A stretch of 64,000 bases of DNA from Alistipes sp. ZOR0009. Lineage in GTDB: Bacteria > Bacteroidota > Bacteroidia > Bacteroidales > ZOR0009. Positions 9,427-34,241 of the stretch are shown here, piece after piece (position 1 is the first letter of the stretch; every line of letters begins with the position of its first letter). The position numbers and the translations under genes are program-made. Under the pieces are notes generated by a model. The model was not told the origin of the DNA, did no database searches, and saw nothing but the letters and a program-made list of their open reading frames with translations. Where the stretch lies: contig NZ_JTLD01000050.1 of the NCBI RefSeq assembly GCF_000798815.1, forward strand, positions 1-64,000, written 5' to 3'.

Positions 9427-10509
9427 ATGAATTGTAAAATAGGCGATAAAGTTCGATTCTTAAATTCTACAGGAGGCGGTATTGTTGTTCGTTTTTTGAA
9501 TAAGAATATTGTTGCGGTGCAGGATGAAGATGGTTTTGACATTCCGGTGCCAATTAGCGAGGTAGTTGTTATAGACGAGAAAAAGGATAGCGCTTTTGCA
9601 AGCAGCAGTTACATTCAAAAACCGACTCCTTCTTCTACTGGGAAGCAAGATCTTGCAAGTGAGGATGATGAAGAGTTTGACGATTTTGTTATTCCTGAAA
9701 GAAAGGAGGTCGAGGCAATTGATCCTTCTACCAATAATTATAATGTGCTACTGGCATTTGTGCCATTTAACAAGCAAAACCCGGCCAATTCAGAGTTAGA
9801 TTTGTATATTATTAATGATAGCGATTACAGAATTGCCTATTCTGTTGGTAAATGGACAGACAAAGAGTTGCTGCAGCCCATTGGATCTGGTATTATGGAA
9901 TCAGATTACAAAGAACGAATTTGTACACTTACTCGGGATGATTTTTCAAAGTTGCAGGTTTTTAATGTTAGCATTATCTACTTTAAAAACAGAGATTTTT
10001 TACCGTTGCCTCCAGAACAGGTCAATCTAGAGTTGACTCCATTGAAGTTTGTAAAAGCAAATTCTTTTAAGGAGACAGAATATTTTGAAGAGCCAGCGGT
10101 TATATTTACCGTTGCAACAAGCAGTAAGCCAAATACGCCTGTTTCAAGCATTACTAAAAAGGAGCTAGAACAATCTCTCAAAGAGAAAAAAGATATACGG
10201 CCTAAATTAAATCTCAAATCGACAACAGAGCAAGAAGAGATAGATTTGCATATCGATGAGCTTGTCGATAATTCGGAAGGAATGTCTAATGGAGAGATTC
10301 TCGAAATTCAAATGGCTCGATTTACGACAACCTTAGAGGGGGCAATACGTGCAAAAACTAAGCGTATTGTTTTTATTCATGGAGTTGGGAATGGAAAGTT
10401 AAAGAATGAGGTGCGTAAAACACTTGAACGAAGTTATCCAAAGCTCAAATTTCAGGATGCCTCATTTAAAGAGTATGGCTATGGAGCTACTCTTGTTATT
10501 TTAAAATGA
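9427..10509 (+). CDS. DUF2027 and Smr domain protein
   Basis: 360 residues. The N-terminal ~40 residues form a small beta-rich SH3-like piece (G-D-K-V-R-F-L, G-G-G-I-V-V) typical of DUF2027, followed by an acidic linker and a middle beta domain (about 100-215). The C-terminal ~85 residues are an Smr domain with D-L-H-I-D-E-L near the start and H-G-V-G-N-G-K-L-K, the motif of MutS2-type nucleases. Full-length members occur across Bacteroidales; their role, perhaps nucleic-acid binding or cleavage, is unproven. It is transcribed away from queA, and rnpB begins 10 bases after its stop, so rnpB may be partly expressed from the same transcript. Confidence 0.82.
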   Translation: MNCKIGDKVRFLNSTGGGIVVRFLNKNIVAVQDEDGFDIPVPISEVVVIDEKKDSAFASSSYIQKPTPSSTGKQDLASEDDEEFDDFVIPERKEVEAIDPSTNNYNVLLAFVPFNKQNPANSELDLYIINDSDYRIAYSVGKWTDKELLQPIGSGIMESDYKERICTLTRDDFSKLQVFNVSIIYFKNRDFLPLPPEQVNLELTPLKFVKANSFKETEYFEEPAVIFTVATSSKPNTPVSSITKKELEQSLKEKKDIRPKLNLKSTTEQEEIDLHIDELVDNSEGMSNGEILEIQMARFTTTLEGAIRAKTKRIVFIHGVGNGKLKNEVRKTLERSYPKLKFQDASFKEYGYGATLVILK

Positions 10510-10518
10510 AATATTAAT

Positions 10519-10867
10519 AAGGTTTAACATTCCGTCGCTAGCAGTACAACTGCTAGAGGAAAGTCTGGGCAGCGTAGAGCATCACGCTTCTTAACGGGAA
10601 GATACTCGTAAGGGTATAGTTTAACGTAACAGAAAATAACCGCCTTGTTTACAAGGTAAGGGTGAAAAGGTAGGGTAAGAGCCTACCGGTAATCATGGCA
10701 ACATGGTTAGCCGTACGACTGGTGAGCTGCAAGACCATGTATACCGGCGCTTGAGGGCTGCTCGTTCGAGCCGGAGGGTAGGTCGCTAGAGCTAATAGGT
10801 GACTATTAGTCGAGATAAATGGCGGAAACTCGAGAGAGTAACAGGACCCGGCTTATTGTCAAACCTT
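10519..10867 (+). ncRNA. rnpB: RNase P RNA (class A)
   Basis: Catalytic RNA that matures tRNA 5' ends together with RnpA. All universally conserved blocks are present in order: GAGGAAAGTC near 10555-10566, ACAGAAAATAACCGCC near 10630-10645, AGGGTGAAAAGGT, then AGAGCCTACCG, and the 3' block ACAGGACCCGGCTTA near 10841-10856. The ends pair as helix P1: AAGGTTT at 10519-10525 with AAACCTT at 10861-10867, then ACA with TGT after one mismatch. Length (~349 nt) fits. A strong intrinsic terminator follows at 10881. Confidence 0.96.
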
Positions 10868-10880
10868 TTAATATATTGAA

Positions 10881-10921
10881 GCGAGTGCTTAACGATTATG
10901 TTAAGCACTCGCTTTTGTTTT
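10881..10921 (+). terminator. Intrinsic terminator of rnpB
   Basis: Perfect 13-bp stem (GCGAGTGCTTAAC, 10881-10893, complement 10900-10912) with a 6-base loop and a trailing TTTTGTTTT. Confidence 0.9.
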
Positions 10922-10977
10922 AATATGCTTATCTCTTATAGAATTTACATCGTAAAATACAATTAAGGTCACTCTTG

Positions 10978-11099
10978 TTACATATGTAAACAAGAAAGGA
11001 GTACTATGTTTAATACATATGTAAATCAATCCAAGGTGATTTGGTAAGAGTTGAGATTGTTTATTAGCATTGTTAATGCAGAGGGTGTTACAAATGTAT
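10978..11099. promoter_or_regulatory. Upstream group of TTACAnnTGTAA operator-like palindromes
   Basis: Three sites: TTACATATGTAA at 10978-10989 (perfect), TACATATGTA at 11014-11023 (perfect 10-mer), and TTACAAATGTAT at 11088-11099. A degenerate relative, TTTACATCGTAAA, lies at 10944-10956. They match the sites in front of the XRE gene ~400 bases downstream and are probably bound by that regulator (inference). Confidence 0.5.
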
Positions 11100-11443
11100 C
11101 CCGCCTAAGTTTTTGTGTTTTAATATCTGATAATGAGCGCTTTAAATTGTTTTATATGCTTTTGTAGTTTAATTATATTGGTCTTGTTTTTATAAACTAA
11201 CACTAATAACCTGTTATGCGTAGTTTATAATCATAATAACCAGTATTTTAGGCTTATTTATTTAAACTTTTATTTTATTTGTTTTTAAGGGACTATAACG
11301 TCCCCCGTTTTACTCTAAAAGTAGGCTCTAATATTGCAGATTGGTGCTACTCTCGTGTAGTATTAAGTGGGAATAAAGCCATAATTGATCTACAACATGT
11401 CCTGTATCTACCATACTACCATATTTACCGCCATATCGGATAA

Positions 11444-11523
11444 TTACAAATGTAATTAAATATAAATTACAGATGTAATTAAAAGGAATGGGTTGTTTTC
11501 GCTTTTATTTGTTACATTTGTAA
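11444..11523. promoter_or_regulatory. Promoter-proximal group of TTACAnnTGTAA operator-like palindromes
   Basis: Three sites: TTACAAATGTAA at 11444-11455, TTACAGATGTAA at 11467-11478, TTACATTTGTAA at 11512-11523. Their spacing (23 and 45 bases) is roughly two and four helical turns, which would put them on one face of the DNA. The last one contains the likely -7 element of the XRE gene. Confidence 0.6.
11513..11520 (+). promoter_or_regulatory. -7 element of the XRE regulator gene
   Basis: TACATTTG, an exact TAnnTTTG match lying within the last palindrome, with a TTGT at 11493-11496 as a possible -33 element. The ATG at 11541 follows 20 bases later. Confidence 0.55.
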
Positions 11524-11540
11524 ATATTAAAGTTTCATCC

Positions 11541-12023
11541 ATGAATGATCGTTTGGACAAACTTCTACTAGCAGAACAGCTAACTCCTGCTAAGTTTGCA
11601 GACTTAATTGGTGTGCAGCGCTCTAGTATATCTCATATAATATCGGGCCGCAATAAGCCTAGTTTCGATTTTATAGCGAAGGTTCTTTCAAAGTTTCCGC
11701 GTGTTAACTCTGAATGGCTCATTCTCGGTAAAGGTGAGATGTATAAGCAAATGGTTCAAGCATCTTTGTTCGACAGTCCTGTCCTAAATCCGACTCCTTT
11801 AGGCGAAAATGCATCAAACGACGAGATTAAGCGACAAGAAGAGGTTTCTATTTCTGAAAATAGAAAGCCTAACAGCTTTTTATCTAATAACCATCCGGGA
11901 GATGAATCGGTCATGTCTAGCAATGATCAACGAATTGAGTCGTTATTTGGAAAAGATGTTGAAAGAATTGTTGTATTTTATAATGATAGAACTTTCAGAA
12001 GTTACACGCCATCAGAAGACTAA
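11541..12023 (+). CDS. XRE-family helix-turn-helix transcriptional regulator
   Basis: 160 residues. Residues 1-65 are a lambda-Cro/CI-type HTH: L-T-P-A-K-F-A-D-L-I-G-V-Q-R-S-S-I-S-H as helices 2 and 3, then I-S-G-R-N-K-P-S at about 34-41. A disordered S/N/E-rich linker follows and the tail ends with V-E-R-I-V-V-F-Y-N-D-x-T-F-x-S-Y, which I recall as shared by Bacteroidota relatives. I chose the ATG at 11541 rather than 11493: the HTH starts there and the likely -7 element lies between the two. Palindromes over its promoter suggest it represses itself. pyrD follows 27 bases after the stop but has its own -7 element. Confidence 0.85.
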   Translation: MNDRLDKLLLAEQLTPAKFADLIGVQRSSISHIISGRNKPSFDFIAKVLSKFPRVNSEWLILGKGEMYKQMVQASLFDSPVLNPTPLGENASNDEIKRQEEVSISENRKPNSFLSNNHPGDESVMSSNDQRIESLFGKDVERIVVFYNDRTFRSYTPSED

Positions 12024-12027
12024 TTAC

Positions 12028-12035
12028 TATCTTTG
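12028..12035 (+). promoter_or_regulatory. -7 element of pyrD
   Basis: TATCTTTG, an exact TAnnTTTG match 15 bases before the ATG at 12051. Its position supports that ATG over a TTG start at 12033, which lies inside the element. Confidence 0.5.
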
Positions 12036-12050
12036 CATAAAACTAATTTC

Positions 12051-13088
12051 ATGTATCGACTATTAGTACGTCCCTTTTTATTTCTTTTCTCTCCAGAGAC
12101 TGCACACCATATTACCTTTAGTATCTTAAACATATGGCGTAAAGTACCTGGTATGATGCATCTTGTAGGAAAATTGTACAAAGTACGCAACGAAAAGTTG
12201 GAGCGCACTGTGTGGGGAATTAAATTTCCATCTCCAGTAGGATTAGCTGCTGGTTTAGATAAAAATGCAACTGGCTATGATGTTTTTGATGCAATAGGAT
12301 TTGGTTTTGTAGAAGTTGGAACTGCGACGCCTAAGGCTCAAAAAGGCAATCCTAAACCACGCTTATTTAGGTTGATAAAAGATAATGCGATTATTAATCG
12401 TATGGGATTTAATAATATTGGTGTAGAGGAAATTGCAAATAATTTGAGCAAATCGTATCGAGAGGGCTTGATTATTGGAGGTAATATTGGAAAGAATACG
12501 CTAACTCCAAATGAAAATGCAGCGGATGACTACGAAAAATGTTTTATGGCTCTATACGACAAGGTGGACTATTTTGTAGTAAATGTCAGCTGTCCCAATA
12601 TTGCGAACTTATCAAAACTTCAAAACACAGATTCTCTCGGAGAGATTGTAGAAAAGTTAGTTCGCTTTCGAAAAACAAAGTCTGCTTACAAACCAATCTT
12701 ACTAAAGATATCTCCCGATCTGAGCTTCGAACAAATAGATGATTCGCTTAACATAATCAATCAGTTTTCTTTGGATGGAATTGTTGCTGTTAATACGACG
12801 ACTAAAAGAACGGGGTTGTCGCTAAGACAGGATAAGCTGGATCAAATTGGGAATGGCGGTTTGAGTGGTAAACCTTTATCAAGCAGGTCTATAGAGGTTG
12901 TTCGTTATATTAGTATGAAAACCAATGGGCAAATGCCTATTATTGGAGTTGGCGGAATCATGAGCGTTGACGATGCGTTGAACATGCTAAGGGCCGGCGC
13001 TTACTTGATTCAGGTTTACACTGGCTTTATTTATCATGGTCCCGATCTTATAAAGGACATTCATAGAGCAATTATTAAAGAATTTTAA
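12051..13088 (+). CDS. pyrD: Dihydroorotate dehydrogenase (quinone), class 2
   Basis: 345 residues. FMN enzyme that oxidises dihydroorotate to orotate in pyrimidine synthesis, passing electrons to quinone at the membrane. Class 2 features are visible: an N-terminal helical membrane-associating segment (residues 1-45), G-L-A-A-G-L-D-K-N near 64-72, N-R-M-G-F-N-N at 116-122, and N-V-S-C-P-N with the catalytic Ser180, followed by K-I-S-P-D and the C-terminal I-Q-V-Y-T-G-F-I-Y phosphate-binding end. Family length is normal. It stands alone between its own promoter and a strong terminator at 13106. Confidence 0.94.
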   Translation: MYRLLVRPFLFLFSPETAHHITFSILNIWRKVPGMMHLVGKLYKVRNEKLERTVWGIKFPSPVGLAAGLDKNATGYDVFDAIGFGFVEVGTATPKAQKGNPKPRLFRLIKDNAIINRMGFNNIGVEEIANNLSKSYREGLIIGGNIGKNTLTPNENAADDYEKCFMALYDKVDYFVVNVSCPNIANLSKLQNTDSLGEIVEKLVRFRKTKSAYKPILLKISPDLSFEQIDDSLNIINQFSLDGIVAVNTTTKRTGLSLRQDKLDQIGNGGLSGKPLSSRSIEVVRYISMKTNGQMPIIGVGGIMSVDDALNMLRAGAYLIQVYTGFIYHGPDLIKDIHRAIIKEF

Positions 13089-21263: not shown

Positions 21264-21311
21264 TCAAATGTCTCATAATGCATATTATGATAAATAAAAG
21301 AAAGGATAAAT

Positions 21312-21341: not shown

Positions 21342-22646
21342 TTACATGCTTTGAAATATCGCATTAAATTCTTCGTACTTCTTTTTCATGTCTTCACTTT
21401 CATTTCGGAAGCGGAAATAAATATTTTTGATATTTTCCACAAGATTTTTATCCTTTGGATTAATGTTGTATGCAACTAAAAATTGCTCTAGCGACATTTT
21501 TAACTTTGCATCGGCATCTTTCAGAAGCTTTTCATACTCTTGCTTATTATTGACATCGACGCTGTTAGATTTATTAACGAGTTCAAGAGCTTGGTTGTAG
21601 TATGTTACTCCAACGTTATTCCATCCCTCAAAATATTTGCTATTTATGGCTACTGACTTTTTGTACCAAATCAATGCTTGCTCGTAATCTTTAAATTTTT
21701 CATAAAAAGAACCTTTTATCAAGTAAAGTGATGGATTTTGTGGATCAAGCAGAATTGCCTTGTCTAAATAAGGGATAACATTCTTTGGATCTTCGTTTTG
21801 TGATAAGTATAAGTTTATGATTCCAAATATATTGGCTGTATTTGCTGGGAACATCTCAAGCCCTTTTAAGTAGCATTCTTTTGATTTTTCAACCTCTTTA
21901 ATAGCGCTATAGGCTTCTCCTAATAGTTTGTATGTATCTCCATTTTGATAGCATCTATTACTAATTGCTATTTGTCCATATTTAGCTGCTTCTGAATAAT
22001 TTGAGGCTTCAAGCGATGCAAATGCAGCAAAGTAGGCAATTAAAGTATCTGGAGTGTTTACAGCAGCATGCGCAGAAGACTGAAAGCCAAGGGCGAAGTA
22101 TTTTGCTGCTTCTGCTTTGTTCCCTGCTCCGTAAGCATTATTTGCTGTTTTTATAAAATAGTTTTTGTATGTTACTAAGGCTTCTTTTACCTTTTTCGTA
22201 GATTTGCTTGGATCAATCGAATATGCTTTTTCGATTGCCAGATAGCCTGTTTCTAACGGATTTTCAACCCCACTATCTTTTATTGTCCAATATAGCAGCT
22301 TCCCATTTTCAAAAAATAGATCAATGTAGGGATATTCAAACTTAGTTAAAGGCTTTCCTCCTACTTGAATTTCTGAATTTGTGTTTGCTTTTCCTAGAAG
22401 AAGTTCTGCTTCTGCTTGTCCCATGTTTAGGTATGCGCCAGCAAGCGGACTTTCTGCTATCTCTCCAAAAATATCAGCTCTTTTGAGCCATATTTTATAG
22501 TTAGAGCTCGCTTTTGCATCCGTAACTTCATTGTTACTTTTTTCTGCTTTTGCTTTAACATCTGCAGGGTCGTAGCCTTTTTGGGCAAATATAATGTTGG
22601 ACGTAAGAAGCAACATTAATGCTGAGAATAGAATTTTTCGTGTCAT
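21342..22646 (-). CDS. Secreted TPR protein, paralogue B of a tandem pair
   Basis: 434 residues with signal peptide (1-21, cleavage after F-A-Q). The mature start K-G-Y-D-P-A-D-V-K-A-K-A and the whole length align with the neighbouring 432-residue protein; by eye about two thirds identical. TPR helices run from ~150 to 370, with a repeat ending Y-L-D-K-A-I-L-L-D-P-Q-N-P-S-L-Y. The C-terminus ends with F-R-F-R-N-E-S-E-D-M-K-K-K-Y-E-E-F. It probably serves as a periplasmic scaffold. A terminator lies between the paralogues, so this copy likely has its own promoter, though no clear -7 element was found. Confidence 0.8.
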   Translation of the reverse strand: MTRKILFSALMLLLTSNIIFAQKGYDPADVKAKAEKSNNEVTDAKASSNYKIWLKRADIFGEIAESPLAGAYLNMGQAEAELLLGKANTNSEIQVGGKPLTKFEYPYIDLFFENGKLLYWTIKDSGVENPLETGYLAIEKAYSIDPSKSTKKVKEALVTYKNYFIKTANNAYGAGNKAEAAKYFALGFQSSAHAAVNTPDTLIAYFAAFASLEASNYSEAAKYGQIAISNRCYQNGDTYKLLGEAYSAIKEVEKSKECYLKGLEMFPANTANIFGIINLYLSQNEDPKNVIPYLDKAILLDPQNPSLYLIKGSFYEKFKDYEQALIWYKKSVAINSKYFEGWNNVGVTYYNQALELVNKSNSVDVNNKQEYEKLLKDADAKLKMSLEQFLVAYNINPKDKNLVENIKNIYFRFRNESEDMKKKYEEFNAIFQSM

Positions 22647-24099: not shown

Positions 24100-26607
24100 C
24101 TATTCTTGAACGTCAGTGATAATCTCAATGTTGCTAGCCGATTCTTCAATTTCATCGTCTTTGTCATCAGACTTAGGAACACTTGCGACAGATGCGATTG
24201 AGTCGTTATTTCTTAAATTTATCAACTTCACACCTTGAGTTGCTCTACCTGTTACGCGAATGTCACAAATTGCTAATCGAATTGTCAGACCCGATTTATT
24301 GATAATCATTAAATCATTCTGATCAGTAACCGATTTAATAGCAATAAGTTCTCCTGTTTTGTCTGTTATATTCATGGTACGAACACCTTTACCTCCACGA
24401 TTGGTGATACGATATTCGTCTAGAAGCGATTTTTTTCCGTAACCATGTTCAGAAACTACTAGTACATTTTCAAGTTCTTGGTTTTCAACGCAAATCATAC
24501 CAACAACTTCGTCGGTATCAGACATTGCGATTGCTTTTACACCCGCTCCTGTACGTCCTATTGCACGTATTTTCTGTTCATTAAATCTGATGGCTTTTCC
24601 TTCTCTAGAAGCTATCAATATTTCGTTTGATCCGTTGGTTAGGCATGCCTCTAATAGCTGATCACCATCTTTAATTGTAATGGCGTTGACCCCATTTGCC
24701 CTTGGACGCGAATATGCTTCTAGCTGAGTTTTTTTGATTATACCTTTTTTGGTACAAAGTACAATAAAGTTATTTTCAATATACTCCTTATCGGTGAGTC
24801 GCTTAACATTCATGTAAGCCTTAACTTTATCGTCAGGCTCGATGTTTAAAACATTTTGAATGGCTCTACCTTTTGAGGCTTTTGTTCCTTCTGGAATATC
24901 ATAAACTTTTAACCAGTAGCATCTTCCCTTTTCTGTAAAGAAAAGCATCATGTTATGCATACTAGTTACATATATATGCTCAATAAAGTCGGCATCGCGG
25001 GTTGTGCTACCTTTTGAGCCAACTCCTCCCCTTGATTGAGTTCTATATTCTGTTAAAGGAGTTCTTTTTACATAGCCTAAATGAGAAATTGTAATTACAA
25101 CATCTTCATCTGCATAAAAATCTTCAGGATTGAATTCTTCTGCATTAAGAACTATTTCTGTTTTACGAGCGTCTCCGTACTTATCTTTTACTTCTGCAAG
25201 CTCATCTTTAATTACTTGCATTTGCAAAATTGGATCTGCTAGAATAGCACGAAGTCTAGCGATAAGTTCCATAAGCTCATTGTACTCGTTTTGAAGTTTT
25301 TCACGTTCTAAGCCGGTAAGACTTCTCAAACGCATATCAATGATTGCTCTAGCTTGAATTTCCGAGAATTGCAGTTTATCGACTAACGTGTTTAATGCTT
25401 CGTCTGGAGTTTTTGAACCACGTATTATAGAGATTACTTCATCTAGATGGTCTAATGCTTTAAGTAAACCTTCTAAAATATGTGCTCGCTTTTCTGCTTG
25501 ATCCAACTCAAATTGGGTGCGACGTAAAATAACTTCGTGCCTATGGCGAACAAAGTATTTTATGAGCTGCTTTAGGTTTAGTAGACGAGGACGACCATCT
25601 ACGAGTGCAATGTTGTTTATTGGAAAAGACGACTGCAGCTGGGTATGCTTATACAGGTTATTTAAAACGACATTTGCAACGGCATCCTTTTTAAGGATAA
25701 TAACGATGCGCATTCCAGTTCTATCTGACTCGTCATTTATGTATGAAATTCCCTCTATTTTCTTTTCATTAATAAGGTCTGCGATCTTTTTGATCATTTC
25801 AGCCTTATTTACCATGTAAGGAATTTCGGTTATGATGATTTTGTCTCGTCCTGAGTCTGTAACCTCAATTTCTGTTTTAGAACGAAGGATTACCTTACCT
25901 CTACCCTTTTCAAAAGCATCTCTAACACCTTGATAACCATAAATAATTCCTCCTGTTGGAAAATCTGGCGCCTTAACAAAGGCCATCAATTCTTCAACAG
26001 TAATTTCATTGTTATCGATATACGCAATTGTTGCATCAACAATCTCAGAAAGATTGTGAGGGGCCATGTTTGTAGCCATCCCAACCGCGATTCCTGATGC
26101 TCCATTAACTAATAGCATTGGAATCTTGGCTGGCAATACGGTTGGTTCCTCAAGCGTATCGTCAAAGTTTGGTTTGAAGGAAACGGTATTCTTTTCTAGA
26201 TCGGCTAACGCCTCTTCTGCAATTTTCTTTAACCGAGCTTCGGTATAACGCATTGCAGCAGGGCTATCTCCATCTATCGAACCAAAGTTTCCCTGCCCTT
26301 CTACTAGAGGATAACGCATTGCCCAATCCTGAGCCATGCGAACCATTGCCTCATATACAGATGAGTCTCCATGTGGGTGGTATTTACCAAGAACTTCCCC
26401 GACAATTCTCGCAGACTTTTTATATGCGCGATTGGAGAAAACCCCCAACTCGTTCATTCCGTAAAGAACCCTTCTGTGTACAGGCTTTAATCCATCTCGA
26501 ACATCTGGGAGTGCACGAGCAACAATAACCGACATTGAATAGTCGATGTATGCTGTTTTCATCTCCTCTTCAATGTTGATTTTAATGATCTTTTCTCCTT
26601 GAGTCAT
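24100..26607 (-). CDS. gyrA: DNA gyrase subunit A
   Basis: 835 residues. Type IIA topoisomerase subunit that cuts and rejoins DNA to introduce negative supercoils with GyrB. The breakage-reunion domain has the catalytic Y121 in A-A-M-R-Y-T-E-A-R. The quinolone-pocket region reads [10 protein letters not shown], with serine at the position equal to E. coli S83 and glutamate at D87. The C-terminal beta-pinwheel contains R-G-G-V-G-S-K-G and N-R-G-G-K-G, relatives of the GyrA box, supporting gyrase rather than topoisomerase IV ParC. An acidic tail ends the protein. clpC lies divergent 218 bases away. Confidence 0.92.
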
Positions 26608-26825
26608 ATTATGTTATCTCTCAAATATTGACAAATTCAGTTTGCTAAGTTACTTAATTAAGCTTTAAAATCATTGCTTTAATCAATGTATTTTCAACAA
26701 TTGCTTATTTTGTTCGTTATATGATAAAGATACAGGAAAACTTCGTATCTTACAAATATGATTATCGTTAAATGACTTGTATTATAAGCATTTGATAGAT
26801 AATTTAGTACCCAAATTTTACATTT

Positions 26826-29363
26826 ATGGATTCAAAATTCAGCGATAAGATTAAAAACGTCATTACTTACAGTAAAGAGGAGGCTGCCCGCTTGGGCAAC
26901 CAATCTGTTGGTGCAGAGCACTTACTGCTAGGAATTATAAGAGAGGGGACGGGAGTTGCTATCGAAGTTTTGAACGCATTAGACGTAGACATTGATACGC
27001 TTAAACGATCGATAGAGGATAAAATCCGAACCGATTTTGTGATACCTATAAATGAACTTGAGAGTATTAATCTTCTCAAGTCTGCCGAAAGAGTTTTAAA
27101 ACTTGTTCATTTGGAGGCTAAAGCATTGAAAAATGATGTAATCGGAACAGGACACCTGCTCCTTGCGCTTATGCGCGACGGCTCTAATTTAGGAAGTATT
27201 TCTTTGAGCGAGCAAAGCATTGATTATGTTAAGGTAAAGCAGCAGCTCGAGTCGAAGACCATTAAAGCTCAAAGCGACTTTAATGATGATGATGAGGATA
27301 AAGATATTTTCTCTTCAAAATCCTCTCAAAACTCAAAATCGAACTCCAATACACCTGTTTTGGACAATTTTGGGATTGACCTCACAAAGGCGGCGGAAGA
27401 AAATAAGTTGGACCCCATTGTAGGAAGAGAAAAGGAAATTGAGCGAATAGCTCAAATACTGAGTAGAAGAAAAAAGAACAACCCCATTCTTATTGGGGAG
27501 CCTGGAGTTGGAAAATCAGCAATTGCAGAAGGACTAGCCTTGCGGATTATTAAACGCCAAGTTTCGAGAGTCTTATTTGGAAAGCGTGTTGTTACACTCG
27601 ATTTAGCTTCAATTGTTGCTGGAACAAAGTATAGAGGGCAATTTGAAGAGAGAATGAAAGCAATCCTAAATGAGCTTTCGCAGGTTAATAACATAATTCT
27701 TTTTATTGACGAAATTCATACAATTGTTGGCGCAGGAGGTGCTACAGGTTCGTTAGATGCGGCGAATATGCTTAAACCCGCATTGGCACGTGGTGAAATA
27801 CAATGTATTGGCGCGACAACACTTGATGAATACCGAGAGTATATAGAAAAGGATGGTGCATTAGAGCGTCGCTTTCAGAAGGTGATGGTTGATCCTACAT
27901 CTCCCGATGAAACGGTTGAAATTCTAAATAAGATAAAAGCAAAATATGAAGAGTACCATAACGTTATTTATACACCAGAGGCTATTGAAGCGTGTGTAAA
28001 ATTAACTATGCGTTATGTTACGGACAGATGCTTGCCTGATAAGGCCATTGATGCGCTAGATGAGGCTGGGTCGAGAGTTCATATCTCGAATATTAAAGTC
28101 CCAGAACGTATTTCTCTTGTAGAAATGCAAATTGAAGATGCTCGCTCTGAAAAACTTGCTGCGGTCAAGAATCTTCAGTTTGAAATTGCAGCAAACTTTA
28201 GAGATAAGGAAAAGAAGCTAATGGAAGCATTAGAATCTGAGCAGCAGCAATGGGAACGGGATTTATCTAAAAACAAGCAAATTGTTGATGAAGAAAAAGT
28301 AGCAGAGGTTGTTGCTTTAATGACAGGTGTTCCAGTGCAGCGCATTGCTCAAGGAGAAGGAACAAGGCTCCTTAAAATGGCAGATGAACTCAAAGGTAGT
28401 GTTATTGGGCAAGATGAGGCGATACAAAAAATAGTTAGGGCAATTCAGCGTAATCGTGCTGGACTAAAGGATCCTAATAAACCGATTGGAACATTTGTTT
28501 TTCTAGGTCCAACGGGAGTTGGTAAAACACAGCTCGCAAAGGTTCTCGCAAAATACTTATTCGATTCTACTGATAATTTAATTCGAGTAGATATGAGCGA
28601 GTATATGGAAAAATTTTCTGTAAGTAGATTGGTCGGTGCACCTCCTGGATACGTTGGATACGAGGAAGGTGGCCAGCTAACAGAGAAGGTGCGTCGTAAA
28701 CCATACTCTGTTGTTCTTCTCGACGAAATAGAAAAAGCTCATCCTGATGTATTTCATTTATTACTTCAAGTTCTTGATGAAGGCTTACTTACCGATTCTT
28801 TAGGTCGTAAAATAGACTTTAAGAATACGATAATCATAATGACGTCGAATATTGGAACTCGCGAGCTAAAAGAATACGGACAGGGTGTCGGCTTTACCAC
28901 TACATCTAAAGAAGAACAATTTAATGAAACTTCTAAAGGTGTTATTCAGAAGGCTCTTAGGAAAGCATTTGCACCTGAATTCTTAAATAGAATTGACGAT
29001 ATTATCTTATTTAATGCTCTTTCTAAGAAAGATATATTTAAGATTATCGATATAGAACTTAAGGGGCTATACTCTCGTGTTCTTCAGTTAGGCTTTAATA
29101 TCCATCTAACTCCTGCAGCAAAAGATTTTATTGCAGAAAAAGGGTTCGATATTCAGTTTGGGGCTCGCCCGTTAAAAAGAGCAATTCAAAAATATTTGGA
29201 AGATCCTATGGCTGAGGTTATTATTAAATCAGGAGCAAAAACTGGAGATACTTTATCTGTCGCATTGAACAAGGACAAGACAGATGTTGTAATAAAAAAA
29301 GTTACATCAAAAGAAGGTAAATCTGTAAAAGCAATTGAACAAAAGCAAGACGTACAGGTTTAA
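26826..29363 (+). CDS. clpC: ATP-dependent Clp protease ATP-binding subunit ClpC
   Basis: 845 residues, Hsp100 unfoldase. An N-terminal double Clp-N repeat (1-145) is followed by a D/S-rich linker, then AAA1 with Walker A G-E-P-G-V-G-K-S (224-231) and Walker B F-I-D-E-I-H. A coiled-coil middle domain (~410-500, V-E-M-Q-I-E-D-A and R-D-K-E-K-K-L) marks ClpC rather than ClpA. AAA2 has Walker A G-P-T-G-V-G-K-T near 561 and [13 protein letters not shown] tripeptide near residue 688 matches the ClpP-docking loop, so it should work with ClpP. No ctsR or mcsAB neighbours are present. tpx follows 28 bases on. Confidence 0.92.
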
Positions 29364-29391
29364 CGCATAACTTTACATTAAACAAAAAGCA

Positions 29392-29907
29392 ATGAATAAA
29401 AACGCATCAAAAGTAAAATTTGCAGGAGGCCCTGTAACATTAGTTGGAACAGAAGTTATATTAGGACAAGTTGCGCCAAACTTTACGGCAGTTGGGGCTG
29501 ATTTAAAGCCTGTGAGCCTTAACGATTTTGAAGGTAAAGTGAAGGTCATTTCTGCATTTCCTTCTGTTGACACGGGGGTTTGCGCGACTCAAACTAGAAC
29601 TTTTAATAAGGCTGCCGCCGATTTGAGCAATGACATTGTGATAATTAATATTTCTGTAGATTTACCATTTGCCCAAAAACGCTTTTGTGGGGCAGAAGGT
29701 ATTGACAAGGCTATTACTATTTCCGACCACAAAGCGGTTGACTTTGGGTTGAACTATGGATTCTTGATAGACGAACTTCGTTTGCTAGCAAGAGGAGTTG
29801 TTGTTATTGATAAAAATAATGTAATTAAGTATGTTGAATATGTTCCAGAAGTTACAACAGAACCTAATTACGAGGCAGCTTTAGAAATAGCAAAGACCTT
29901 GGTTTAA
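29392..29907 (+). CDS. tpx: Thiol peroxidase (Tpx, atypical 2-Cys peroxiredoxin)
   Basis: 171 residues. It reduces hydrogen peroxide and organic peroxides with thioredoxin as electron donor. Peroxidatic C64 lies in P-S-V-D-T-G-V-C-A-T-Q-T-R and resolving C99 in K-R-F-C-G-A-E-G, the Tpx arrangement. No signal peptide is visible, so it acts in the cytoplasm, or less likely the periplasm. It follows clpC closely with no terminator between, so it may be expressed together with clpC as stress genes. A strong terminator separates it from rimO. Confidence 0.94.
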   Translation: MNKNASKVKFAGGPVTLVGTEVILGQVAPNFTAVGADLKPVSLNDFEGKVKVISAFPSVDTGVCATQTRTFNKAAADLSNDIVIINISVDLPFAQKRFCGAEGIDKAITISDHKAVDFGLNYGFLIDELRLLARGVVVIDKNNVIKYVEYVPEVTTEPNYEAALEIAKTLV

Positions 29908-29913
29908 AAAACG

Positions 29914-29939
29914 AAGAGCGGCTAAAAGCCGCTCTTTTT
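29914..29939. terminator. Bidirectional terminator between tpx and rimO
   Basis: Perfect 10-bp stem AAGAGCGGCT (29914-29923) with its complement (29927-29936), followed by a T-run on the plus strand and an A-rich flank serving the minus strand. Confidence 0.88.
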
Positions 29940-31230
29940 ATATGAATTTAGCAAAAAGATCAAACTCTTCTGCATCTATAATTTCTACGTCATAAAAATG
30001 ACCGATTTTTGCATTCCCATTAACTTCAATAAGAACCTCTTGATCTACCTCTGGAGAATCGTATTCAGAACGTGCGATATAGTAATCTCCTTCAATGCGA
30101 TCAATTAGAATGCGCATTGTTTTTCCAACTCGTTCCTTGTTTTTTTGTAGTGCTATTTCGGACTGAATTTGCATAATCTCCTCTACCCTATTCTGCTTAA
30201 CTTCTTCTGATATTGAATCTTCAAAATTTATTGCAGAAAAAGTATTTTCTTCTTCAGAATAGGGAAATACTCCAAGCCTATCAAATTTAACTGTACGTAC
30301 AAATTCTTTTAATTCCTCAAAATCAGCGCTAGATTCTCCCGGATGTCCTACTAAAAGCGTTGTTCTAATCGCAATGTCAGGGACTTCTTGCTTTAATTTA
30401 TTGATTAGCGCGTATGTTTCTTCTTTGTTAATACCCCTTCTCATCTTTTTTAGGACTCTATCGCTAATATGTTGGAATGGGATGTCTAAGTAGCTACATA
30501 CCTTTGGGTTGTTACGAAGAACTGCGATTACATCATCAGGAAAAAATGTAGGATAAGCATAATGAAGTCTTATCCATTCAATACCATTAACTTCCGAAAG
30601 TCTATTTAGTAATTCTCCTAGTTTTCTTTTACCGTAAATGTCTAGACCATAATACGTTGAATCTTGAGCAATAACAAGCAATTCTTTAACTCCTTTGTTG
30701 GCAAGAGTGGTGGCCTCTGCAACCAAATCTTCCATTGGAACTGAAATGTGCTTTCCTCTAATTAGGGGAATTGCACAGTATGAGCATCCCCAGTTGCAAC
30801 CTTCTGAGATTTTTAAATAAGCGTAATGGTTGGGCGTTGTAATGCTCCTTTCTCCAAGCAAATCCGATTTGAGATCTCCTCCAATTGCTTTTACAATATC
30901 TTCTAAATTGTTTACGCCAAAGAAATCGTCTACCTCTGGTATTTCTGCCTGCAAATTTTTTTTATAACGTTCTGCAAGACATCCCATAACAAAAAGATGA
31001 CGAATCTTTCCGCTAACTTTTGCGTGGGCAAATGATAATATGGTATCTATTGATTCCTCTTTTGCATCACCAATAAAGCCACAGGTGTTAATAACGACGA
31101 CTTTAGCACTCGTGTCGTTAGAGTCATGTACAACGCTAAAGCCATTGACTTCTAATTGCTTAATTAAACGCTCAGAATCAACAAGATTTTTAGAGCAGCC
31201 TAATGTTACTATGTTTATTTTCTTCTTCAT
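29938..31230 (-). CDS. rimO: Ribosomal protein S12 methylthiotransferase
   Basis: 430 residues. It methylthiolates the conserved aspartate of ribosomal protein uS12. The N-terminal MTTase domain has cluster cysteines C12, C50 and C84; the radical SAM core has C145-x3-C149-x2-C152 in G-C-N-W-G-C-S-Y-C; a C-terminal TRAM domain begins around residue 365. The S-K-N-L-V-D-S-E start and length mark RimO rather than MiaB. It follows ftsY by 23 bases on the same strand and is probably co-transcribed with it. Confidence 0.94.
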   Translation of the reverse strand: MKKKINIVTLGCSKNLVDSERLIKQLEVNGFSVVHDSNDTSAKVVVINTCGFIGDAKEESIDTILSFAHAKVSGKIRHLFVMGCLAERYKKNLQAEIPEVDDFFGVNNLEDIVKAIGGDLKSDLLGERSITTPNHYAYLKISEGCNWGCSYCAIPLIRGKHISVPMEDLVAEATTLANKGVKELLVIAQDSTYYGLDIYGKRKLGELLNRLSEVNGIEWIRLHYAYPTFFPDDVIAVLRNNPKVCSYLDIPFQHISDRVLKKMRRGINKEETYALINKLKQEVPDIAIRTTLLVGHPGESSADFEELKEFVRTVKFDRLGVFPYSEEENTFSAINFEDSISEEVKQNRVEEIMQIQSEIALQKNKERVGKTMRILIDRIEGDYYIARSEYDSPEVDQEVLIEVNGNAKIGHFYDVEIIDAEEFDLFAKFI

Positions 31231-31253
31231 TTAATTAATTTCATCCTTTTTTG

Positions 31254-32207
31254 CTAACTGTTGAAAAGCGAGTTTACAAATGATTTTCTGTCAAATAGTT
31301 GCAAGTCTTCAACGCCTTCTCCAACACCTATGAATTTTACAGGAATTTTAAATTGGTCTGAAATTCCTAAAACAACGCCACCTTTAGCCGTTCCATCAAG
31401 TTTTGTAAGTGCTAGTGCTGTAACTTCTGTAGCAATGGTAAACTGCTTGGCTTGTTCAAAAGCATTTTGTCCAGTGGAGCCGTCAAGAACCAATAAAACC
31501 TCATGAGGAGCATCTGGTATAACTTTTTGCATAACATTTCTGATTTTTGAAAGCTCGTTCATAAGATTTATCTTGTTATGCAAACGTCCCGCCGTATCTA
31601 TAATTACGACATCTGCATTATTCTTTTTGGCTGACGATAAAGTGTCAAAAGCTACAGATGCAGGGTCTGATCCCATTTGCTGCTTTATTATGGTTGCATT
31701 AGATCGTTCTGCCCAAACGCTAAGCTGTTCAATAGCGGCAGCCCTAAAGGTATCAGCAGCACCAAGAAAAACTTTTTTCCCATTCTTTGTTAGCTGTGCT
31801 GCAAGTTTTCCGATGGTTGTGGTTTTACCTACACCATTTACACCGACAACCATTACAACGTAGGGCTTTTTATTGTCTCCATAGGTTACCTTATCCTCGT
31901 ATACCGAATTGTTTTCTTCGAGGAGGTTGGCAATTTCCTCCTTTAAAATGAGATTAAGTTCGTCGGTTCCCATGTACTTATCTCTGGCAACACGATCTTG
32001 AATGCGCTCAATTATCTTTACCGTAGTTTCAACCCCGACGTCGGATGTGATTAATGCTTCCTCGAGGTTGTCTAGGACATCATCGTCTACTCGTGATTTA
32101 CCTGCAATAGCGCGTGATATCTTTGATAGAACGCTCTCTTTGGTTTTCTCTAACCCTTTGTCAAGCTGCTCTTTTTTCCCTTTCGAGAAGAAGTCGAATA
32201 ATCCCAT
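31254..32207 (-). CDS. ftsY: Signal recognition particle receptor FtsY
   Basis: 317 residues, SRP-type GTPase that docks SRP-bound ribosomes to the membrane translocon. The NG domain has G1 G-V-N-G-V-G-K-T-T at 122-130, D-T-F-R-A-A-A, D-T-A-G-R and T-K-L-D-G. The N-terminal A domain is nearly absent, only a short lysine-rich stretch with G-L-F-D-F-F-S-K-G, as is usual in Bacteroidota. It follows the DUF4295 gene but a terminator (32240-32266) separates them, and a TATATTTA sequence upstream may be its -7 element. Confidence 0.94.
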   Translation of the reverse strand: MGLFDFFSKGKKEQLDKGLEKTKESVLSKISRAIAGKSRVDDDVLDNLEEALITSDVGVETTVKIIERIQDRVARDKYMGTDELNLILKEEIANLLEENNSVYEDKVTYGDNKKPYVVMVVGVNGVGKTTTIGKLAAQLTKNGKKVFLGAADTFRAAAIEQLSVWAERSNATIIKQQMGSDPASVAFDTLSSAKKNNADVVIIDTAGRLHNKINLMNELSKIRNVMQKVIPDAPHEVLLVLDGSTGQNAFEQAKQFTIATEVTALALTKLDGTAKGGVVLGISDQFKIPVKFIGVGEGVEDLQLFDRKSFVNSLFNS

Positions 32208-32239
32208 TGCTTTAAATTTTAATCGAGTGTAAATATAAA

Positions 32240-32266
32240 AAAAGCTTCTTTATTCAAGAAGCTTTT
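32240..32266 (-). terminator. Terminator after the bL28-bL33-DUF4295 unit
   Basis: 11-bp stem (32240-32250 with 32256-32266), 5-base loop, followed on the minus strand by a seven-base T-run. It lies between DUF4295 and ftsY. Confidence 0.75.
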
Positions 32267-32291
32267 CTTTTACAATGAAATATGGTCGAGA

Positions 32292-32450
32292 TTACTTTTT
32301 CGAGAAAAATTCCTTAACGTCTCCGGTTGGAACCATTTCTTCTTTAAAAGTGTAAGCTCCTGTCTTTTCAGACTTTACCATTTTGATACACTTCGTAAGG
32401 GCTTTTCCGCCTCCCTCTTTTTTAAGAGTTGCAACTACTTTTTTTGCCAT
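32292..32450 (-). CDS. DUF4295 protein, probable ribosomal protein bL38
   Basis: 52 residues, very basic: starts M-A-K-K-V-V-A-T-L-K-K-E-G-G-G-K and ends E-F-F-S-K-K. It sits directly after rpmG on the minus strand (10-base gap) in the arrangement shared by Bacteroidota. I recall that the cryo-EM structure of the Flavobacterium johnsoniae ribosome identified an extra Bacteroidota-specific large-subunit protein named bL38, and I believe this is that family; this identification is from memory. The gene is too short for many gene callers but start, stop and context are clear. Confidence 0.85.
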   Translation of the reverse strand: MAKKVVATLKKEGGGKALTKCIKMVKSEKTGAYTFKEEMVPTGDVKEFFSKK

Positions 32451-32460
32451 GGTTCAATAA

Positions 32461-32643
32461 CTATTTAATTTCTCTGTGGAGAGTTACTCTTTTCAGAATT
32501 GGGTTATACTTTCTTCTTTCGATACGTGCTGGAGTGTTTTTCTTGTTCTTTGTAGTCACGTAACGAGAAGTTCCTGGCATTCCGCTTTCTTTATGCTCGG
32601 TACACTCAAGAATTACTTGTACTCTATTACCTTTTTTTGCCAT
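32461..32643 (-). CDS. rpmG: Large ribosomal subunit protein bL33
   Basis: 60 residues. Starts [17 protein letters not shown], with the [13 protein letters not shown]-x-R-I-E-x-R-K-Y-N-P core and a K-R-V-T-L-H-R-E end. The zinc-binding cysteine pairs of some bL33 copies are missing (only one cysteine), so this is a zinc-independent form. It starts 15 bases after the rpmB stop, with an AGGAG sequence between. Confidence 0.95.
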
Positions 32644-32658
32644 TTCTTGAATCTCCTA

Positions 32659-32901
32659 TTAGTAAATGCCGATTAAACCTAGTTCTTGAGCCTTTGCTAG
32701 TGCATTCTTAAGCCCAATCTTGTTAATTGTACGGATGCCCTGAGTTGAAACTTTAAGGGTAATCCATCTGCTTTCTTCAACTAGGAAGAATTTTTTTACT
32801 TTCAAATTTGGCTCAAACGTTCTCTTAGTTCTTCTCTTAGAGTGAGATACGTTGTTTCCAACTTGAACTTTTCTTCCGGTGATTTGACAAACTTTTGACA
32901 T
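32659..32901 (-). CDS. rpmB: Large ribosomal subunit protein bL28
   Basis: 80 residues: M-S-K-V-C-Q-I-T-G-R-K, N-N-V-S-H-S-K-R-R-T-K-R-T-F-x-P-N and a C-terminal A-x-E-L-G-L-I. First gene of the small ribosomal unit rpmB-rpmG-DUF4295. Upstream is a plausible promoter with TTTG near -33 (32970-32973) and TAATTTG near -7 (32942-32948) separated by 21 bases. Confidence 0.95.
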   Translation of the reverse strand: MSKVCQITGRKVQVGNNVSHSKRRTKRTFEPNLKVKKFFLVEESRWITLKVSTQGIRTINKIGLKNALAKAQELGLIGIY

Positions 32902-32941
32902 TGCTATACCGTTTTTCTTTTCTTTCTCTTCAAACAGGGTG

Positions 32942-32973
32942 CAAATTACGTGATTTTATTTCAAAAATACAAA
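32942..32973 (-). promoter_or_regulatory. Promoter of the rpmB operon
   Basis: On the minus strand TTTG (32970-32973), 21 bases, then TAATTTG (32942-32948); the -7 element is one base short of the TAnnTTTG consensus, but both boxes and spacing fit a strong housekeeping promoter. Confidence 0.45.
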
Positions 32974-32996
32974 GGATCAGCTACTTTTTTTCGAAT

Positions 32997-34241
32997 TTAC
33001 CGCTTTTTTAAAATTTCAATCCTAAGCATGTTTAAAGCTGCTGCAGTTGCTCTTACCATTGTTCGCTCTCGATTGTCTCCGAAATTGAAAACTTTAGAGA
33101 AAGTTCCATGTTCGGATGCGACTGCTATCCAGGTTGTTCCAACTGGTTTTGAATCTGTGCCTCCATCAGGACCTGCTATTCCTGATGTTGAAATAGCAAA
33201 GTCTGTTTTAAGTAATTTTCTGACCCCTTCGGCCATCTGTTCAACAACGCTTTTGCTGACAGCTCCATCTGTAAAAAGTATACATGGGTTTACGTTTAAC
33301 AAATCTGTTTTAACGTTATCATCGTAAGCTATAATGCCTCCTTTAAAATAGCGAGATGCTCCTGATACCGAAACAATGGTACTAGCCACAGTGCCTCCTG
33401 TGCAAGATTCTGCTGTTGAAACCGTAAAATTTTCTGTTTTCAGTATACGTCCAACGACAACTTCCAACTTTTCATCTTCAAAACTGAAGATATTGTCATT
33501 CAAAATATTAGTGATTTCTGCGATTTTCGAATTTGTTTCGTTATTCAGACTATTTTTATCGGATCCTATTGCGGTTATTCTAAGTCTAACACCTTGCAAA
33601 CTTGGGAGGTATGCCAACTTCATATTTGAAGGTAAATTATCTTCCCAGCTTTCTATTTTCTTTGCTAAAACAGACTCCGGAATTCCTGTAGTCATAATTG
33701 TTCTATGCAAAATAGCATTGTTGCCAGCTTCCTTTTCAAGTATTTTTATAATTTGTTGCTCCATTAGCAATTTCATCTCAAATGGAACTCCTGGCATTGA
33801 AAAAAGGAACTTTCCTTCTTTTTTAAATAGCATGCAGGGGGCTGTTCCGTTAAAATTTTGAATAACTTCGCAAATATCAGGAACTTCTGCTTGCATTCTA
33901 TTTATATCAGAAAGGGCTATACCTCTTTTGCTGAGAATTGAAACGACTCGATCAAGAGTGGGAGTATCTGTTTTAAAACCGCACTCAAAATATTCTGCTA
34001 ATGCTTTTTTTGTAATATCATCTTTGGTTGGTCCCAATCCACCTGTCATAAGAATGGCATCTGCATTTGCAAAAGCGTCGTTTAGGGCTTTAAATATTTG
34101 ATTTTTATTATCTCCGATTGATGTAATCTTAGATATTTCGATTCCTACCTCATTGAGCTTTTTTCCTATCCAAGCGGAATTTGTATCAACAACCTGACCT
34201 ATTAGCAGCTCGTCTCCTATCGTGATTATTTCTACCTTCAT
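32997..34241 (-). CDS. cinA: CinA-family nicotinamide mononucleotide deamidase / competence-damage protein
   Basis: 414 residues. The N-terminal MoaB-like COG1058 domain (1-170) has T-I-G-D-E-L-L-I-G and T-G-G-L-G-P-T-x-D-D; the C-terminal CinA domain (~255-414) has S-T-A-E-S-C-T-G-G, G-G-I-I-A-Y and S-T-S-G-I-A-G-P-D-G-G, the deamidase active site. It salvages NMN to nicotinic acid mononucleotide and may hydrolyse ADP-ribose. The start ATG 34241 is where the conserved N-terminus begins; an upstream start at 34268 is less likely. No recA neighbour. Confidence 0.9.
   Translation of the reverse strand: MKVEIITIGDELLIGQVVDTNSAWIGKKLNEVGIEISKITSIGDNKNQIFKALNDAFANADAILMTGGLGPTKDDITKKALAEYFECGFKTDTPTLDRVVSILSKRGIALSDINRMQAEVPDICEVIQNFNGTAPCMLFKKEGKFLFSMPGVPFEMKLLMEQQIIKILEKEAGNNAILHRTIMTTGIPESVLAKKIESWEDNLPSNMKLAYLPSLQGVRLRITAIGSDKNSLNNETNSKIAEITNILNDNIFSFEDEKLEVVVGRILKTENFTVSTAESCTGGTVASTIVSVSGASRYFKGGIIAYDDNVKTDLLNVNPCILFTDGAVSKSVVEQMAEGVRKLLKTDFAISTSGIAGPDGGTDSKPVGTTWIAVASEHGTFSKVFNFGDNRERTMVRATAAALNMLRIEILKKR

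Follow-up and report, generated by a model that had tools for sequence, protein, structure and literature searches.

Six palindromes of the TTACAnnTGTAA type lie in front of a small XRE regulator gene in Alistipes sp. ZOR0009 (contig NZ_JTLD01000050.1), and this locus raises the question of which protein binds such an array and what the array is for. We analysed it within the window, which here means the whole stretch of 64,000 nucleotides at the start of this contig. By direct reading, four of the six sites are perfect and two carry one mismatch, and they occupy the 670 bp (29% GC) that separate the RNase P RNA gene from the ATG of XRE at 11541 (Table 1). An earlier note on this DNA had described six shared 12-bp palindromic sites in two groups, which the reading and the shuffles below confirm. 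Five of its six positions were right, while the second site starts at 11013 and not at 11014, and the spacings of 23 and 45 bp that it gave for the proximal group are correct.

To judge the significance of the array, 2000 first-order Markov shuffles of the 670-bp gap were generated. It turned out that the 4 perfect sites compare with a shuffle mean of 0.008 (maximum 1), and the 6 sites with at most one mismatch compare with a mean of 0.13 (maximum 2). The 4.4-Mb genome as a whole contains 12 perfect sites, 4 in this array and 8 scattered, against 11 hits of the reversed control pattern, so the motif is not generally common here. Because the genome-wide number is about that of the control, the cluster is what stands out. 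By the shuffles, the array is real. A wider regulon in the genome of the window was considered and rejected on the same counts, and the whole-genome motif search found no clustering of sites elsewhere in this genome.

Table 1. Positions of the features discussed in the text, numbered within the window.
Feature	Position	Strand	Remark
RNase P RNA gene	10519-10871		
Distal operator (predicted), perfect TTACATATGTAA	10978..10989	+	sequence read
Distal operator (predicted), one mismatch ATACATATGTAA	11013..11024	+	sequence read
Distal operator (predicted), one mismatch TTACAAATGTAT	11088..11099	+	sequence read
Spacer element, single copy, core CAGTATTTTA at 11241	11225..11277	+	weight matrix
Proximal operator (predicted), perfect TTACAAATGTAA	11444..11455	+	sequence read
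Proximal operator (predicted), perfect TTACAGATGTAA	11467..11478	+	sequence read
Promoter-overlapping operator (predicted), perfect TTACATTTGTAA	11512..11523	+	contains TACATTTG at 11513-11520
XRE (HTH_3) regulator, 160 aa: HTH domain, low-confidence linker, C-terminal beta-hairpin	11541..12023	+	
Codons of Q73-A-S-L-F77, word resembling beta-clamp-binding motif	11757..11771	+	
Codons of conserved C-terminal hairpin, residues 143-155	11967..12005	+	
pyrD (dihydroorotate dehydrogenase)	12051..13088	+	27 bp after XRE stop
dif-like 28-mer	21268..21295	+	core at 21275 = genome's sole match to ATAATNNATATTATNNTAA

To find out whose sites these are, we compared XRE loci of other genomes. The XRE protein has a match at E <=0.001 in 167 of 198 genomes of the order, the weakest of which may be other HTH proteins, and a class-wide sample of 247 genomes contains 66 with a match at 1e-12 (8 of them belong to the order). 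The counts below refer to 75 non-redundant orthologous XRE loci (G134 included), 66 of which have 700 bp upstream, and some analyses took 73, 68, 66 or 65 loci. Left out of the 75-locus counts were L004, L005, L085, L086 and L087 as paralogues or weak matches, L047 and L083 as copies of L024, and L041, L046, L063, L069, L070 and L076 as near-duplicates; L088 matches the C-terminal part only.

It turned out that nearly all upstream regions contain at least one site (65 of 66), most contain at least three (50 of 66), and 46 of 66 have both a proximal and a distal group, compared with at least one site in 8 of 73 and at least three in 1 of 73 downstream control windows. Sites with at most one mismatch reach 19 per kb over the last 120 bp ahead of the gene. 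Their density falls to 1.5 per kb between -300 and -130, is again 3.9 per kb between -700 and -300, and comes to 0.16 per kb in the remainder of the same loci. Besides, the sites persist across loci with varied neighbours. Since the sites and the XRE gene are conserved together, the array is very probably a set of binding sites of the adjacent XRE regulator, and the proposal of the earlier note that this protein is the binder is strongly supported.

The single locus of the 66 without a site is G134, in which the recognition helix is altered (GRAVISH for QRSSISH). It contains five ACAnnTGT cores in 600 bp (e.g. ATACATTTGTAT) with the same two-group layout, compared with four in the other 19.4 kb, and its sites have altered flanks (ATACAnnTGTAT and similar). 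The changes of helix and flanks look like one instance of co-change, not proof. A relative of XRE with 36% identity and similar sites upstream is also found in a record titled Glaciecola amylolytica (L081 3001-3366), which is a possible transfer; Glaciecola amylolytica is a gammaproteobacterium.

The position of the sites tells how they might work. The distance from the gene-nearest site to the ATG is 24-32 bp in 46 of 62 loci, and in 55 of 60 loci this site has a TT centre and thus contains TAnnTTTG, which is described in a passage of PMC7366714 as the -7 element of the Bacteroides primary sigma factor; TACATTTG is the match in the window. Elsewhere a TT centre is less frequent, with 24 of 90 among the remaining proximal sites and 25 of 115 among the distal ones. 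As far as sequence can tell, the predicted operator overlaps the core promoter of its own gene. Autorepression of XRE is very likely because the gene-nearest site contains the -7 word in so many loci, and a protein on this site would block RNA polymerase. The idea that the distal group serves a second regulated promoter, also raised before, found no clear support: of the 115 distal-site centres 25 are TT and 36 AA, so TT is not strongly preferred in either direction.

The pairwise spacings of the sites peak at 24, 34, 46-47, 58 and 67 bp, a period of about 11.1 bp. The phasing R is 0.57, whereas uniform random distances reach 0.20 at their 99th percentile; the related loci are not independent. 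Spacings with such helical phasing mean that the sites tend to face one way. Together with a distal group several hundred bp away, the phasing supports cooperative filling and looping, and the DNA looping that had been suggested from the two groups is plausible as a looped complex over the spacer.

The spacer itself holds a second element, which is AT-rich, about 50 bp long and has the core YCAGTnTTTTA-N6-TTATnTnAAGTA. It was found by gapped-word (68 loci) and weight-matrix searches (66 loci, L046 kept). In the window it scores 21.5 bits and the next plus-strand hit 5.1 bits, with a matrix trained with this locus included. In 2.86 Mb of Bacteroidales DNA two places reach at least 20 bits, both of them XRE loci that were included in training the matrix, one being the copy in the window. 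For a split test, the matrix was built from each half of the loci alone and applied to the other half, the seed word coming from all loci. The element was found in 50 of 65 upstream regions, against 0.0 in shuffles and 0 of 64 downstream controls, and among the 30 loci with two hits the spacing is 105-106 bp in 20, 115-117 bp in 8, and 99 and 108 bp in one each. Counted over the full set, at least one copy is present in 58 of 66 loci and at least two in 38 of 66, and nearly all adjacent spacings (36 of 39) are 105-106 or 115-118 bp. Such pair spacings are close to 10 and 11 helical turns; the window locus has one copy and not a pair. When hidden RNA was searched for in window positions 10000-12100, RNase P alone reached E <=1, and the RNA search of 20 other loci, at gathering scores, yielded tRNAs on the downstream side of XRE and, in L002, RNase P.

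The XRE protein belongs to HTH_3 (PF01381), with 30.7 bits against a Pfam gathering cut-off of 23. In its predicted structure, the HTH domain is confident to residue 70 (blocks of 96-98), the linker is of low confidence and the C-terminal hairpin scores 85-91. Foldseek matched it to HTH repressors, as sequence searches did too. There is no match at E <=0.001 among the best 50 of 413, and the fold matches 434 Cro (2cro) with a TM of 0.81 by target length and a Foldseek E of 0.0085. A phage origin of XRE was considered and rejected: one scan of viral_contigs confirmed no relative, and the phrogs matches are generic repressors.

The linker is poorly conserved apart from a word Q-x-[STDN]-L-F. LF is found in 62 of 75 linkers (shuffle mean 6.6, maximum 14) and Q-x-[SDTNEL]-L-F in 25 of 75 (shuffle mean 0.2, maximum 3), while 13 of 75 have no LF word. 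The beta-clamp-binding consensus is given as Q-L-x-L-F in a part of PMC4549789. The word of XRE shares the Q, L and F positions with such clamp binders, within a low-confidence linker, but its second residue is usually P, A, G or T and not L, and we take the word as a lead resembling a clamp-binding motif. The clamp motif is near the C terminus in 1 of 1415 ORFs, an ORC-CDC6-like protein, which is too few to calibrate. In the same order, L187 (10996-12930, minus strand) encodes an ORC-CDC6-like protein with QLSLF near the C terminus.

Where the locus lies on the chromosome was read from GC skew and gene direction. Of four complete chromosomes, for which pieces of 20 kb were sampled, three (G002, G198 and G134) change from plus to minus skew at XRE, and G199 has no clear GC skew. 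Of 15 further drafts, 14 have a higher skew to the left of XRE than to its right, the exception being G126 with the reverse direction, and 9 are strictly plus to the left and minus to the right. The full-length 16S genes of G002, G198 and G134 (13 of 13, with one partial 16S of G199 set aside) and the rplB genes of all four complete chromosomes (4 of 4) point to XRE by the shorter arc, both counts being hand-derived. The skew and the gene directions have the polarity of a terminus and not of an origin, and a location of the XRE locus at the replication terminus is well supported. The earlier note did not see this location, nor the phased spacer element, the overlap with the -7 element and the clamp-motif-like word.

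The window also contains a dif-like site (Table 1), which lies 9.3 kb downstream of XRE, just before a gene at 21345 on the minus strand. In the first 20 genomes, 10 had one dif match each, all on the XRE contig, and 10 had none. When canonical dif was searched near XRE in eight 20-kb pieces and the window, only the sites of G002 and the window were convincing. The order-wide pairing covered 148 of the 167 XRE genomes and gave dif hits in at least 100; an accepted hit ends in TTATG[TA]TAA, other endings being left out after inspection. XRE and canonical dif are present in at least 85 genomes of the order. They share a contig in 31 of 85, 0.1-112 kb apart, and G120 and G201 also have both on one contig, yet stand outside this count. 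In the other 54 of 85 they are on different contigs and the distances are lower bounds only.

Without one closed genome, 30 of 84 share a contig against 1.0 expected by the numbers of contigs, or 3.1 if contigs are very unequal, an expectation which used a list of 86 genomes with G120 wrongly among them. Of the 31 same-contig genomes, 30 have XRE reading toward dif, and dif is on the same strand as XRE in 23 and on the opposite strand in 8. Outside the order, 15 of 25 genomes searched have a canonical dif core by hand reading; in 10 it shares the contig of XRE, nine at 15-83 kb and one at 317 kb, and XRE points at dif in 8 of the 10. In the closed genome G370, within the order, a dif core of the accepted form is 577 kb downstream of XRE, which counts against a close linkage there. 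In G142, G114 and G162, a dif core follows the matched end of XRE at a distance of only 115-346 bp.

Taken together, these features make it probable, at roughly 0.6 by our own estimate, that the locus forms an autorepressor complex at the chromosome terminus. The arrangement, conserved across the order, and the terminus position suggest an undescribed terminus-linked regulator. XRE dimers would fill both arrays, and the filled arrays would join across the spacer in a loop of about 0.5 kb, which would shut the promoter of XRE and, where pyrD follows, pyrD as well. More tentatively, the arrival of the replisome at the end of replication might read or remodel the complex, and the remodelling might give a late burst of expression or mark the terminus for segregation. 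This coupling to the replisome is considered because XRE has no other clustered target in the genome of the window, lies near dif and points at it, and carries the clamp-like word.

A role in termination or segregation is what we infer with the least certainty. A bolder form of the same idea is that Bacteroidia possess a dedicated terminus system, in which a clamp-binding XRE protein loops its own locus near dif and couples replisome arrival to its own expression and to processing or segregation of the terminus. This system would be unrelated to Tus, RTP, MatP and ZapT, and the paired elements of about 50 bp, 10 or 11 turns apart, would be a new structural DNA element. We regard this form as speculative and, as a whole, less likely than not.

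The locus could also be explained in other ways. XRE might be an ordinary repressor that controls itself and pyrD as one operon, may have a few targets besides, responds to a metabolic or stress signal and keeps its terminus position by symmetric inversions; we consider this a possible explanation, with a limited chance of being right. In the window XRE and pyrD are probably co-transcribed, as their close spacing would allow. A class-2 pyrD follows XRE in 48 of 75 loci, and pyrK-pyrD1B takes its place in 5 of 75 (L033, L015, L018, L019 and G134, the last as L170). Neither type is found within 1.4-3.6 kb downstream in 20 of 75, and 2 of 75 are too short. Two unlike pyrD types at the same place suggest a link of XRE with pyrimidine synthesis and keep the ordinary operon repressor alive, but the 20 loci with no pyrD in 1.4-3.6 kb still carry at least one site.

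Further targets were sought in nine relatives, for which perfect sites were compared with the reversed control. The two numbers are about equal in G001, G198, G201 and G203; perfect sites exceed the control in G002 (13 to 3), G134 (14 to 6), G199 (12 to 6) and G202 (21 to 12), and fall below it in G200 (10 to 17). The analysed 400 kb of G002, which is of the same genus, contain 10 perfect sites and 0 control hits, with 3 sites at XRE, 4 in one intergenic array, 2 in another and 1 alone, while other pieces (2.38 Mb) contain 5 perfect sites and 3 control hits. The extra intergenic arrays of G002 (L095 7149-7283, with sites about 41 bp apart, and L091 8872-9006) carry the core in a wider palindrome, ACTTTACAnnTGTAAAGT. 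They lie at about 0.45 and 1.33 Mb, and the terminus of G002 is at 2.35 Mb. These arrays may be further XRE targets or sites of another factor, and the former would suit an ordinary repressor. Because G002 has other arrays with the core, the claim of a single target is limited to the genome of the window, and the XRE protein may have more targets in some species.

The neighbourhood of the locus bears on the same explanation. Proteins of the window have 41 hits in other families in 1.34 Mb near XRE (pieces within about 110 kb of it, from 18 genomes) and 10 in 1.04 Mb far from it (pieces from three genomes). As recurrence near XRE is about three times that far away, part of the terminus neighbourhood is simply old, and the terminus position may be passively inherited. 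Look-alikes of gyrA, clpC, rimO, ftsY and cinA (by eye) from window positions 24103-34241 are found near XRE in 3-5 of 18 other genomes, and this segment appears to be a partly conserved terminus neighbourhood. Inversions symmetric about origin and terminus would preserve both distance and direction, and on this explanation they are why XRE has stayed at the terminus. Nevertheless, the distance to dif varies from 0.1 to 112 kb and dif stands on either strand, yet XRE points at it in 30 of 31 genomes, and the phased second element and the clamp-motif-like word would be left unexplained by an ordinary repressor.

A third explanation, which we consider improbable, is a replication fork barrier, with the protein stopping forks at terminus sites like Tus or RTP. 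Gene and sites are indeed together at the terminus, and the predicted sites in its own promoter recall tus/TerB, as described in part of PMC8707476, and the autoregulation of rtp, according to a title cited in PMC10331603. A fork trap has two opposed polar sets of sites flanking the terminus, whereas the clustered sites of the window's genome are all in one place, with the rest at control level, and they are symmetric palindromes, so that a polarity is not obvious.

The spacer with its paired elements might instead serve Xer-type recombination, as the site itself or as an accessory one, or be a cryptic origin at which XRE is the initiator; all this seems very doubtful to us. By eye, the core of the element has an 11-6-11 layout whose right half is like TTATnTnAArT and resembles a XerD arm, but its left half is unlike a XerC arm, and many of the same genomes have a separate canonical dif. 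Also in favour are the low GC content of the spacer (26% against 39% downstream) and the words like DnaA boxes, at 0.24 per kb upstream and 0.07 downstream (counts of 10 and 14); against it, the polarity of the skew is that of a terminus and not of an origin. CopY and BlaI repressors are winged-helix regulators. That such a repressor and not XRE owns the sites is hardly credible: TACANNTGTA is the core of a CopR-CopY operator published in PMC7253601 (in the part consulted), but the regulator adjoining the sites is HTH_3, the sites accompany XRE in 65 of 66 loci with varied neighbours, and in G134, where the recognition helix differs, the flanks of the sites differ too while the two groups are kept.

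In the open-licence PMC literature, we recognised no earlier description of such a locus. RTP of Bacillus subtilis, which acts with Ter, is a DNA-binding protein encoded at the terminus. The XRE protein, like Tus/TerB of Escherichia coli and RTP/Ter, would be a terminus-encoded DNA-binding protein with predicted sites in its own promoter, and it differs from Tus and RTP in being HTH_3 and in having symmetric sites, which form one cluster in the genome of the window. With the XRE repressors of the 434 Cro type it shares the HTH fold and several operators (here predicted) at its own gene, but its sites have a 2-bp gap between the half-sites, and it has the linker with the LF word, the C-terminal hairpin, the terminus position and, in one scan, no confirmed viral relative.

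The macrodomain system MatP/matS has many sites spread over the terminus region. Like MatP and ZapT, the XRE protein is a small DNA-binding protein with a link to the terminus. The matS sites to which MatP binds lie inside the terminus region, and ZapT, a MerR-type protein, bound 10 places, mostly near the terminus, as far as PMC7188993 was consulted; the XRE locus differs from both in having one 0.6-kb cluster beside the gene, with 8 scattered perfect sites against 11 control hits in the genome of the window. The tie between terminus and division in bacteria other than enterics is described as unclear in part of the same source, and chromosome dimer resolution had not been studied in Bacteroidetes as of 2011, according to the portion of PMC3091885 consulted. 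Set beside these systems, the XRE gene, conserved and with an array of its own at the terminus, offers a direct handle on the question of how terminus and division are tied.
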